Shown here in pieces: positions 20,670 to 37,302 of a stretch of DNA of 64,000 bases; position 1 is the stretch's first letter, and each line of letters starts with the position of its first letter. The position numbers and the translations under genes were made by a program. Under the pieces are notes generated by a model that was not told the DNA's origin, did no database searches, and saw nothing but the letters and a program-made list of their open reading frames with translations. This DNA is from Thermococcus gorgonarius (GTDB lineage Archaea; Methanobacteriota_B; Thermococci; Thermococcales; Thermococcaceae). The stretch spans positions 558,001-622,000 of the forward strand of contig NZ_CP014855.1 in assembly GCF_002214385.1 (NCBI RefSeq), in the 5' to 3' direction.

Positions 20670-20737
20670 TGTGCCCCCGGGGAGCGAAGCGGGATCACGG
20701 CTCGCCGGACGCTCACCCGCCGCGGTTTCCCGGGGGC
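20670..20737 (-). ncRNA. H/ACA-like guide sRNA with K-turn
   Basis: A GC-rich 68-base island between two genes. Read on the minus strand, a perfect nine-pair lower stem (20737-20729 with 20681-20673) is followed at once by ACA (20672-20670). Above it is an internal loop with AAACCGCG on the 5' side and UUCGCUC on the 3' side, then a GCGGG/CCCGC stem (20720-20716 with 20693-20689) capped by UGA and GUGAU strands that form a kink-turn with tandem G-A pairs and a U-U pair. The upper stem ends 16 bases before ACA, the usual spacing. This fits a box H/ACA pseudouridylation guide. Hand-folded, not tested. Confidence 0.75.
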
Positions 20738-28194: not shown

Positions 28195-29223
28195 TCACAG
28201 CATCTTTAATGAGATCCCGTAGGGCTCATCCTCCTTCCTCTCGGCACCGAGTATCTCATCGAATTCATACTCCTCACGAATACCCAGGAGGATCTCGACC
28301 TCCTTTGGTGTAAGCACTGGCTTTCTCCAGTTTTCGTAGTCATCTACTGGAACCCTCGGACAGGCAACTACAACGTAAGCATCAAAATCGAAGCCTTCCA
28401 GGGCAGAATAGCTTACGTAGTCCATGGCTATAAGTCTGGCGTACTTTCCGTGCTCTCTGAGAAGATTAATGATCTTCCTCGCCTCCGCCAGTCTGAGCTG
28501 TCCCTTTTTTGTACTTATGACGACCCCGAATTTCTCTGCGTCCATGGCCTTGACTATCTGGCCCCATCTTTTTCTGACCAGCCTTTCCGCGTCTTCGTTT
28601 ATCCAGATGGCATCGCCGGAATAGGGGTTTACAGCGAGAGTGGGTTTTTTCGTGGCAATTGCCACGCCTATCGGGTGGAAGTAACCGGCCCCGACAAAGA
28701 GAGCCCCTTCCGCTTCCACCTTGGCGGCCGAGAAGTTGCAGCCTAAAACCTGTCCCGGCCAGCTTACCCTGGAATCTCCCCTGCCAATCAGGACTTCAAA
28801 GCCCTTCTCCTCGAGAAAGCGGCACATTCTCTCAAGATGGAGTATGTGCTGGGCGGTGGTAACCAGGGCTATCCTCTTCCCCAGCTTTCTTATCTCACCG
28901 AGGTTTTTCTCGAGGGCGGGGATTGGATCAACTTTTGCAAAAGCCGGGACGAAGATCGTTGGAACCTCCAGGTGTAGCGTCATGTAGCTATGTCCCAGGT
29001 GTATAAGCGCGTCGCATCCAAGCAGTTTGGCCTTTGAATCAGCGGGATCACACGCCCCATAGTTGATGTCCCCGTTTATTATGACCTCTATACCTTTGGC
29101 TTCAAGAAAATCGGCAAGTTCTTGGGCTTCTTTTTTAAGACCCTCTGGCGTTTGTATAAGGACCCTTTTTGAGCCAATCTCGCGGAGCCTTTCCACTATC
29201 TCATCGAAGGGTATCTCGTGCAT
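28195..29223 (-). CDS. dph2: Diphthamide synthase subunit Dph2
   Basis: A 342-residue protein with three cysteine sites, [21 protein letters not shown] and [12 protein letters not shown], which bind the single 4Fe-4S cluster. The archaeal homodimer uses SAM non-classically to add a 3-amino-3-carboxypropyl group to the histidine of elongation factor 2. ATG 29223 follows GGTGGTGAA. It is divergent from rpsO, and its own TATA box is about 29257-29265 (TTTAAA on both strands). Confidence 0.95.
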
Positions 29224-29280
29224 TTCACCACCAGGTTCTTCAACAGTGGGGGGGTTTAAATGGGCTCCGGTCGGGCAAAC

Positions 29281-29356
29281 CTTTTTAAATCCCATCTCGA
29301 TTCCCTACGCGGAGGGGCGGCTGGCGGGAGCTGGCCGTCACCGGGAGGTGAAGGAA
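29281..29356 (+). promoter_or_regulatory. rpsO promoter and structured leader
   Basis: CTTTTTAAAT at 29281-29290 is the TATA box; a start site near 29311 is expected. The leader then holds two abutting perfect hairpins: eight pairs at 29318-29325/29330-29337 with a GGGA tetraloop, containing tandem U-G/G-U pairs, and five pairs TCACC/GGTGA at 29338-29342/29347-29351, also with a GGGA loop, which includes the ribosome binding site GGAGGTGA. Layout suggests translational control of S15. The pairing is exact in the sequence; regulation is inferred. Confidence 0.6.
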
Positions 29357-29843: not shown

Positions 29844-31277
29844 GTGGATAAGGGTGCCTTCTTAGAGCGGGCCAGGGAAGGGGCCGAACTGATAAAGATG
29901 CATATCGAGTTAGGTCACACGATAAGGCTGATCTCCCATCGCGACGCAGACGGCATCACTGCCGGTGCCATTCTTGCCAAGGCCGTGGCAAGGGAAGGTG
30001 GGGCCTTCCAGCTGAGCATCGTCAAGCAGGTCAGTGAAGACCTTCTCAAAAAGCTCGCGGGTGAGAACAGGGAGATATACGTTTTCAGTGACCTTGGCAG
30101 CGGCTCGATGGAGCTAATAGAGAAATACCTCGGCGACGCAACGGTTGTTGTGGCCGATCATCATCCACCCGAGAAGGAAAGCTTTTCAAACGACTCTCAC
30201 CTCCTCGTCAACCCCGTTCCATTCGGTGCCAACAGCGTTCGAGATCTGAGCGGTTCAGGTGTTGCCTACTTCGTTGCCAGGGAGATGAACGATGCCAACA
30301 GGGATATGGCATACATAGCGATAGTTGGCGCAGTTGGTGACATGCAGGAAATAGACGGCCAGTTCCACGGCATGAACCTTGAAATCTTGGAGGACGGGAA
30401 GAAGCTCGGAATCCTGGAAGTCAGGAAAGAGCTGAGGTTGTTCGGAAGGGAGAGCAGGCCCCTCTACCAGATGCTTGCTTACTCAACTAACCCCGAGATC
30501 CCGGAAATAACTGGAGACGAAAGAAAAGCCATAGAATGGCTCCGCTCCCAGGGCTTCGACCCAGAAATGAGGTATTGGCAGCTCAGAGAAGAGGAGAAGA
30601 GAAAGCTCCACGATGCCCTGGTTCTTTACCTCATAAAGCACGGCGCCCCAAAGGAGACCATAGATAGGCTCATTGGAGACGTTGTGATAAGCCCACTCTA
30701 TCCGGAAGGCGACCCCAGGCACGAGGCCAGGGAGTTTTCTACCCTCTTAAACGCCACTGGGAGACTCAACGAGGGGACTTTGGGAGTAGCTATCTGCCTT
30801 GGGGATGAGGATGCCTACAAGAGGGCAGTTAAAATGCTCGAAGACTACAAGAGAGAGCAGATTGAGGCAAGAAAGTTCATAATCCAGAACTGGAGCATGG
30901 TCAACGAAAGTGATCACGCCTACGTCTTCTACGCAGGAAAGAACATTAGGGACACACTCGTTGGGATAGCTGCCAACATGGCCATAAACGCCGGTCTTGC
31001 AGATCCAGAAAAACCAGTAGTTGTCTTGGCCGACAGCGATGAAGACGAGAACCTGGTGAAGGGCTCTGCCAGAACCACTGAGAAAGCCCTCGCCAAGGGC
31101 TACCACCTTGGCGAAGCCTTGAGAGAAGTCGCGGAGAAGCTTGGAGGAGAGGGTGGAGGTCATGCTATAGCCGCTGGGATTCGCTTCCCGAAGGGCAAAA
31201 TCGATGAGTTCATCAGGCTCTTCAATGAGGCACTGGCAAGGCAGCTCAGGGGGGAGCAGGGTGAAGATCAGGGTTGA
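29844..31277 (+). CDS. RecJ-like nuclease GAN (DHH family)
   Basis: A 477-residue DHH phosphoesterase: [29 protein letters not shown], then DHHA1 with [12 protein letters not shown]. This is the archaeal Cdc45/RecJ-like GINS-associated nuclease, a 5'-3' ssDNA exonuclease bound to the replisome. Start GTG 29844 follows GGTGATGCCCC. Its position after rpsO and before pcc1 matches Thermococcus kodakarensis. The DHH motif is intact, so it should be active. Confidence 0.93.
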
Positions 31278-31521
31278 GGCCGAGATAGTCTGGCACTACG
31301 GTGATGCCAGAAAAGCTGAGGCAATCGCAAGGGCAGTTCAGGTGGACAACGAGGGCATACCAGAAAGCCTAAAGAAAAGTTTAAATTTGGAAACCCGATG
31401 GGATGATGGAACCGTCAGGACAAAGGTTAAATACTCGGGGGAGATTGATACACTCATCAAGGCGCTTGATGATCTTGTGTTTTCGGTCAAAATCGCCGAG
31501 GAAATGACTGAAAAGGTGTGA
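31261..31521 (+). CDS. pcc1: KEOPS complex subunit Pcc1
   Basis: An 86-residue protein of the Pcc1 fold: [30 protein letters not shown] and [21 protein letters not shown]. Pcc1 dimerises within KEOPS (Kae1, Bud32, Cgi121), which makes t6A37 in tRNA. GTG 31261 overlaps the end of GAN by 17 bases after GGGGAGCAG. The other subunits are not in this window. Confidence 0.85.
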
Positions 31522-31536: not shown

Positions 31537-32136
31537 ATGGCGAAAGCTAATCCGAGAAGGGTCTCGGCTGCAAAGGACAAGTGGAAGCTTAAGGAGTGGT
31601 ACGTGGTTTACGCTCCCGACTTCTTCGGGAGTAAGGAGATAGGCCTAACCCCTGCGGACGATCCGGAGAAGGTTATAGGCAGGGTCGTTGAGACCACGCT
31701 CAAGGACCTCACCGGGGACTTCACCAAGGGGCACGTCAAGCTCTACTTCCAGGTCTACGACGTCAAGGGCCAGAACGCCTACACCAAGTTCAAGGGCCAC
31801 ACGTTGGCCAGGAGCTACATTCGTTCACTCGTCAGGAGGAGGACTACCCGCGTTGATGGAATCTTCAACGTCACAACCAAGGACGGTTACAAGCTCCGCG
31901 TCATGGGCATGGTCATCGCCTATAGAAGGATTCAGACCAGCCAGGAGAGGGCCATAAGGAAGATAATCCAGGACATTATCTACAAGAAGGCCGAGGAGCT
32001 CAACTTCGCGGACTTTGTCCTCCAGTCTGTCAACGGTCAGATAGCGAGCGAGATAGCCAAGGAAGCCAGGAAGATATACCCGATTAAGCGCGCCGAGGTC
32101 AGGAAGATCAAGGTTCTCGCCGAGCCCGAGGCCTGA
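31537..32136 (+). CDS. rps3ae: 30S ribosomal protein S3Ae (eS1)
   Basis: A 199-residue protein with the eS1 marks [44 protein letters not shown] and a basic C-terminus ([14 protein letters not shown]). Found in archaea and eukaryotes, not bacteria. The ATG lies 15 bases after pcc1, with GGAGGTG six bases upstream. Last gene of its cluster. Confidence 0.98.
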
Positions 32137-37215: not shown

Positions 37216-37302
37216 TGGCGCCGGGGCAGGGATTTGAACCCTGGTGGGCGGACGCCCACGGGATCTCGAGTCCCGCGCCTTCCCAGGCTAGGCTACCCCG
37301 GC
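37216..37302 (-). tRNA. tRNA-Ser (CGA)
   Basis: Minus-strand cloverleaf: acceptor GCCGGGG (37302-37296) pairs with CCCCGGC (37226-37220), discriminator G and an encoded CCA (37218-37216). The anticodon loop CTCGAGA gives anticodon CGA (codon UCG). The long variable arm GTGGGCGTCCGCCCAC (class II tRNA) and the T arm with GGTTCAAATC confirm serine. No intron. A TTTATAAA box at 37332-37339 on the same strand sits about 35 bases upstream of the 5' end. Confidence 0.97.

Follow-up and report, generated by a model that had tools for sequence, protein, structure and literature searches.

In bacteria, ribosomal proteins that control the translation of their own mRNAs are well known, but archaeal cases are few. 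Bacterial S15 leaders comprise Ec, Gk, Rr and Tt types, the first three of which reportedly carry a GU/GC motif like that of 16S rRNA helix 22; this motif is one of two S15 contacts in the rRNA and part of several bacterial S15 leaders (PMC4684408). In archaea, the predictions of Eckert and Weinberg (2020) include S15 leaders of Halobacteria and Methanomicrobia, which precede the same operon as studied here (rpsO, recJ, rps3ae) and are described as resembling the multistem junction of the rRNA (PMC7247131). The statement of the original prediction that no archaeal version was described is therefore wrong. Rfam 14 took in the r-leaders that this study had newly identified (PMC7779021). The archaeal L7Ae leader contains a kink-turn, and translation control by the encoded protein has been proposed for it (PMC5539422, PMC6298567). 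We found no S15 leader described for Thermococcaceae or DPANN lineages in the open-licence literature.

The window analyzed here is a stretch of 64,000 nucleotides of the Thermococcus gorgonarius genome (contig NZ_CP014855.1, positions 558,001 to 622,000). Its rpsO gene is followed by DHH/RecJ-like and S3Ae genes (Pfam), the gene content of the leader targets in Halobacteria and Methanomicrobia. We propose that the element ahead of rpsO acts in cis as a leader RNA with which the operon mRNA begins and through which S15 limits its own synthesis, and we assign this reading a probability of about 0.68. S15 as the ligand, repression as the outcome and the direction of the switch are what we infer. 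The features are collected in Table 1; in the text, positions are abbreviated to the final two digits of their window coordinate (14 = 29314).

Table 1. Features of the rpsO locus and its leader, in window coordinates
Feature	Position	Strand	Basis
TATA box TTTTTAAA	29282..29289	+	sequence; 24 nt ahead of G29314
Transcription start region, predicted	29309..29313	+	inferred from TATA spacing
5′ GG, invariant; candidate partner C29341-C29342 in alternative fold	29314..29315	+	all 93 distinct leaders
Hairpin 1 (H1), 10 pairs; inner 8 pairs 29318-29337; loop 29326-29329	29316..29339	+	sequence, fold, conservation, compensatory changes vs DPANN
GGC, 5′ strand of helix-22-like motif (G.U, G-C, C-G)	29323..29325	+	same pairs as own 16S helix 22
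GCU, 3′ strand of helix-22-like motif	29330..29332	+	G30 C31 U32 invariant in 93 distinct leaders
Hairpin 2 (H2) core A40-U49, C41-G48, C42-G47; extendable here to 29338-29351	29340..29349	+	sequence, fold, DPANN counterpart
Shine-Dalgarno GGAGGTG	29344..29350	+	sequence; kept in all but one of 116 Thermococcaceae loci
rpsO, ribosomal protein uS15, 151 aa	29357..29812	+	Pfam PF08069 + PF00312
DHH/DHHA1 family gene (RecJ-like), downstream of rpsO	29844..31277	+	Pfam
Pcc1 family gene, downstream of rpsO	31204..31521	+	Pfam PF09341
Ribosomal protein S3Ae gene, downstream of rpsO	31537..32136	+	Pfam PF01015

Read directly from 24 nt past the TATA box, the leader sequence is GGGGCGGCTGGC-GGGA-GCTGGCCGTCACC-G-GGAGGTG-AAGGAA-ATG. 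The element begins, as originally predicted, at the expected transcript start, which is itself predicted from the TATA spacing. Of the 116 Thermococcaceae loci, 86 have 22-26 nt between the TATA box and G14 and another 29 have 32-35 nt; in 20 of the 21 DPANN loci described below, the distance is 21-27 nt. From this spacing, the mRNA start is expected at the element or within about ten bases of it. No S15 start position was found in passages of the main texts on T. kodakarensis and T. onnurineus transcription starts. The loci with the longer spacing (L002, L006 and others) contain about ten extra bases and a common ATTGGC motif, and the mRNA of this group may start further upstream. The divergent open reading frame (28195-29295, minus strand) is diphthamide-synthesis-like by eye; its listed ATG would overlap the rpsO promoter, and an ATG at 29223, behind GGTGGTGAA, looks likelier. 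Elsewhere in the window, Rfam matches correspond to a Pab160 H/ACA RNA (20670-20737, minus strand) and a tRNA (37219-37302, minus strand).

Both hairpins originally noted can be read in the sequence. The first is a perfect eight-pair hairpin (29318-CGGCTGGC-GGGA-GCTGGCCG-29337), which extends via G29317.U29338 and G29316-C29339 to ten pairs, so that H1 pairs 16-25 with 30-39. The second is a perfect five-pair hairpin (TCACC-GGGA-GGTGA, 29338-29351), the GGTGA of which overlaps the Shine-Dalgarno sequence. H2 pairs 40-42 with 47-49 and is extendable in this species to 38-42 with 47-51; the outer T-A pair is missing in most relatives, which have GGTGT or similar there. The minimum-energy fold of the predicted 46-nt transcript (29311-29356) consists of two tandem hairpins of 9 and 4 pairs, with a stability corresponding to z = -3.5 (0 of 200 shuffles as good).

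H1 and H2 compete for 29338-29339. According to the energy calculation for T. gorgonarius, three folds lie within 0.3 kcal/mol: (a) an eight-pair H1 with a five-pair H2, (b) a ten-pair H1 with a three-pair H2, and (c) an extended H1 in which GG(14,15) is paired with CC(41,42) and A40 bulges out. Over 60 distinct Thermococcaceae leaders, the extended state is predicted to dominate, with a mean P(15-41) of 0.83 at 37 °C, while the H2 pairing that hides the ribosome site has a mean of 0.07 in the ligand-free ensemble. The original prediction that H2 hides the ribosome binding site thus holds for one predicted state, but this state is only one of two that compete and is a minority in most relatives. 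Both alternative partners of CC, the 5′ GG and the Shine-Dalgarno GG, are conserved.

The rpsO loci were gathered by protein similarity; the 116 Thermococcaceae loci include duplicates between collections and represent 72 distinct leader/protein combinations. The element precedes rpsO in every one of the 116 loci read, with the consensus GGGRCGGYYGGC-N4/5-GCTRRYCGTCRCC-N1-3-GGAGGKG ending 5-7 nt ahead of the ATG (116/116 loci). The arms are near-invariant and the loops differ in sequence and length, the GGGA loop of H1 not being conserved. In whole-genome searches, covariance model R2 matched 91 of 94 Thermococcaceae genomes, at a single site in all but two, which have a second copy. R2 gave no match in other families of the same phylum, nor in two other archaeal phyla (a search without a positive control there). 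A match in a 23S-like stretch of L156 (E 0.024) looks like chance. In one genome of another Thermococcaceae genus, the promoter together with the leader is present a second time, partly altered, some 1.2 kb ahead of rpsO (L198:652-680; G068:C1:514251-514279); by eye, the two small genes behind this copy resemble an antitoxin/PIN-toxin pair. A second copy in one draft genome (L199:57-85; G006:C23) lies at the extreme contig end and is probably an assembly or strain duplicate.

A hairpin without any ligand, which would passively shield the mRNA from 5′-to-3′ decay or tune the translation rate, possibly depending on temperature, is a rather unlikely explanation of these data. It agrees with an element that begins at the predicted 5′ end and with a predicted stability that drops steeply between 60 and 90 °C (the values there are extrapolations); moreover, S15 is reported to be among the most-read protein genes in T. 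kodakarensis on sulfur (PMC4247193). Passive stems, however, need neither an invariant GG/CU core nor an invariant GG and CC, and the element is unique in T. gorgonarius, where no other gene carries it.

Among 38 leaders outside Thermococcaceae, two DPANN leaders (L036 and L047) have the same core. The combined core pattern, which was written after seeing these two, has an expected count of 0 over 2000 shuffled sets. Model R1, built including both leaders, and the later model R2 found 19 further DPANN genomes, giving 21 in total. All 21 matches of these genome-wide searches are located upstream of the S15 gene, 18 directly and three with one intervening open reading frame (L166:1559-1972, L193:1525-1983 and L195:1566-1901); the proteins of L166 and L195 have no Pfam match. 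The DPANN leaders have a ten-pair H1 with the GG/CU core, the invariant 5′ GG, and RCC directly after H1. Their H2 is a longer hairpin with the same start position as Thermococcal H2 and with compensatory changes; in 18 of 21 it starts within RCC, and its end lies at the ribosome site or ahead of it in those leaders that adjoin rpsO. The four basal H1 pairs keep pairing with a sequence other than the Thermococcal one, pair 20-35 changes from G-C to A-U, and pair 21-34 from C-G to U-A or U-G. Position 40 of H2 pairs as A-U, G-U or G-C, and most DPANN have a C.U mismatch at 22-33.

The link to S15 comes from helix 22. In the organism's own 16S rRNA (locus L156), this helix contains GGC...GCU, forming G.U, G-C and C-G, the same pairs in the same order as leader positions 23-25/30-32; we take this site to be the place of E. 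coli 666-668/738-740. Strands (GGC and GCU(GG)) and pair order are thus shared, but the rRNA motif runs into a purine internal loop, whereas the leader motif continues as U.G and C-G pairs. By a rough estimate, a three-pair match in a ten-pair stem arises by chance at a few percent and is not rare. Across the 93 distinct leaders, positions 24, 30, 31 and 32 never vary and only two lack a G at 23, the GG/CU core being the least variable part of the H1 stem. This selective conservation of the motif pairs is a stronger argument than the three-pair match itself. The stem was originally said to hold GG/CU twice by symmetry; both copies are present (G29323 G29324/C29331 U29332 and G29333 G29334/C29321 U29322), but the second is not conserved in relatives.

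In 12 DPANN genomes with a readable 16S rRNA, the rRNA pair 666-740 is G.U in three, A-U in six and G-C in three, and 11 of the leaders retain their G.U pair; no coevolution between this leader pair and the rRNA pair was seen in DPANN. The apparent mimicry of helix 22 is exact only in the lineage of the window. The variation of the 666-740-equivalent pair in DPANN 16S rRNA (L200-L213) occurs at an S15 contact described as conserved in bacteria.

A G.U pair that is kept in the leader but not in the rRNA of DPANN would also agree with an rpsO-operon leader RNA that binds another ligand, such as S3Ae, which is encoded in the same presumed operon, or a general RNA binder (L7Ae, for example). The open reading frame between leader and rpsO in three DPANN genomes points in the same direction. 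We nevertheless regard another ligand as unlikely: nothing separates the element from rpsO in 18 of 21 DPANN genomes or in any Thermococcaceae locus read, and the helix 22 pairs are an S15 site. As to L7Ae, no kink-turn (a 3-nt bulge beside tandem G.A pairs) could be read in the leader sequence, nor was there an Rfam match.

Covariation was evaluated against a null in which substitutions were redistributed along the S15 tree, independently per column (2000 simulations). For H1 over both groups, the fraction paired is 0.977 against 0.853 in the null (1 of 2000 simulations), and the double changes also exceed nearly all 2000 simulations. Within DPANN alone, both-side changes in H1 amount to 13 cells against 1.9 (0/2000), with 33/2000 for the fraction paired, while H2 has 23 cells against 2.8 (0/2000), its partners being assigned by folding, which favours H2. 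The compensatory changes that the original prediction proposed to look for are accordingly significant across Thermococcaceae and DPANN and within DPANN, but not in Thermococcales alone: the value within Thermococcaceae is 181/2000, because the element is too conserved there. No single pair is significant either in an R-scape-like test with a simulated tree null (best E 0.37), since there is too little variation in Thermococcaceae and the deep split is dominant; helix-level statistics were used instead.

Changes that are compensatory as RNA pairs, including G-U, argue against a DNA-level site, i.e. an operator or chromatin element in the stretch that separates rpsO from the divergent dph2-like gene. 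Such a site would fit a near-palindrome between divergent genes, but the loop length varies, the element is downstream of the promoter and the DPANN copies follow different upstream genes, making it very improbable. Hairpins arising by chance in a GC-rich start region, for which only the general ease of GC-rich RNA folding speaks, are already contradicted by conservation (116/116 loci, z = -3.5, and genome-wide matches essentially only at rpsO).

Returning to autoregulation by S15, the simplest mechanism that can be proposed is the following. S15 without 16S rRNA to bind would dock on H1 via the G.U/G-C motif, a presumed copy of the helix 22 contact, and would hold H1 and H2 stacked end to end. 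CC 29341-29342 would then pair with the Shine-Dalgarno GG and close the ribosome site, whereas without S15 it would pair with the 5′ GG 29314-29315 and leave the site open. This model needs S15 to raise the site-hiding pairing above its 7% ligand-free average. Alternatively, the extended form may be the one bound by S15, whose bulk would then obstruct the ribosome. The leader is about 45 nt long and occurs throughout Thermococcaceae, including the genetically tractable Thermococcus kodakarensis, and the proposed contact comprises three base pairs; binding, switching and repression are therefore directly testable.

A DPANN-only model, used as an independent homology test, did not find the leader of the window and picks up only some Thermococcal leaders (best E 0.014). 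In the S15 protein tree, proteins group with their own lineages, with no sign that the DPANN copies came from Thermococcales. Thermococcal and DPANN leaders have layout and core in common and may be of common descent. We tentatively consider one ancient archaeal S15 switch common to Thermococcales and Woesearchaeota-type DPANN, a possibility we rate below even odds, in which the mRNA begins with an S15-binding hairpin, the invariant CC chooses between the first two Gs of the element and the ribosome-site GG, and the helix 22 contact is the trigger. If homologous, the DPANN form would make this an unusually old ribosomal leader; if convergent, it would show again how readily S15 leaders arise.

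Compared with known systems, the element has in common with the L7Ae leader that it precedes an archaeal ribosomal-protein gene, a different one, and that control by the encoded protein is proposed. With bacterial S15 leaders it shares the position ahead of rpsO and the GU/GC motif, but it has no apparent pseudoknot or three-way junction and no Rfam match, and it is located at the extreme predicted 5′ end of the mRNA. In Rfam 15, the leader of the window had no match at gathering score and, at E up to 5, only one chance lncRNA match; three DPANN loci likewise had none. The presence of the Halobacteria/Methanomicrobia S15 families in Rfam 15 is inferred from PMC7779021. The predicted folds of the window's leader contain no multistem junction, only tandem hairpins or one extended hairpin. 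The element is, on present sequence evidence, a putative S15 leader form distinct from those predicted in other archaea and absent from Rfam 15. It shares with the Halobacteria/Methanomicrobia leaders the genes of the presumed operon and S15 as the predicted ligand, and may like them mimic the S15 site in 16S rRNA; by their description, however, those leaders mimic the multistem junction, whereas the Thermococcal leader consists of tandem hairpins with a likeness to the stacked G-C/G-U pairs.
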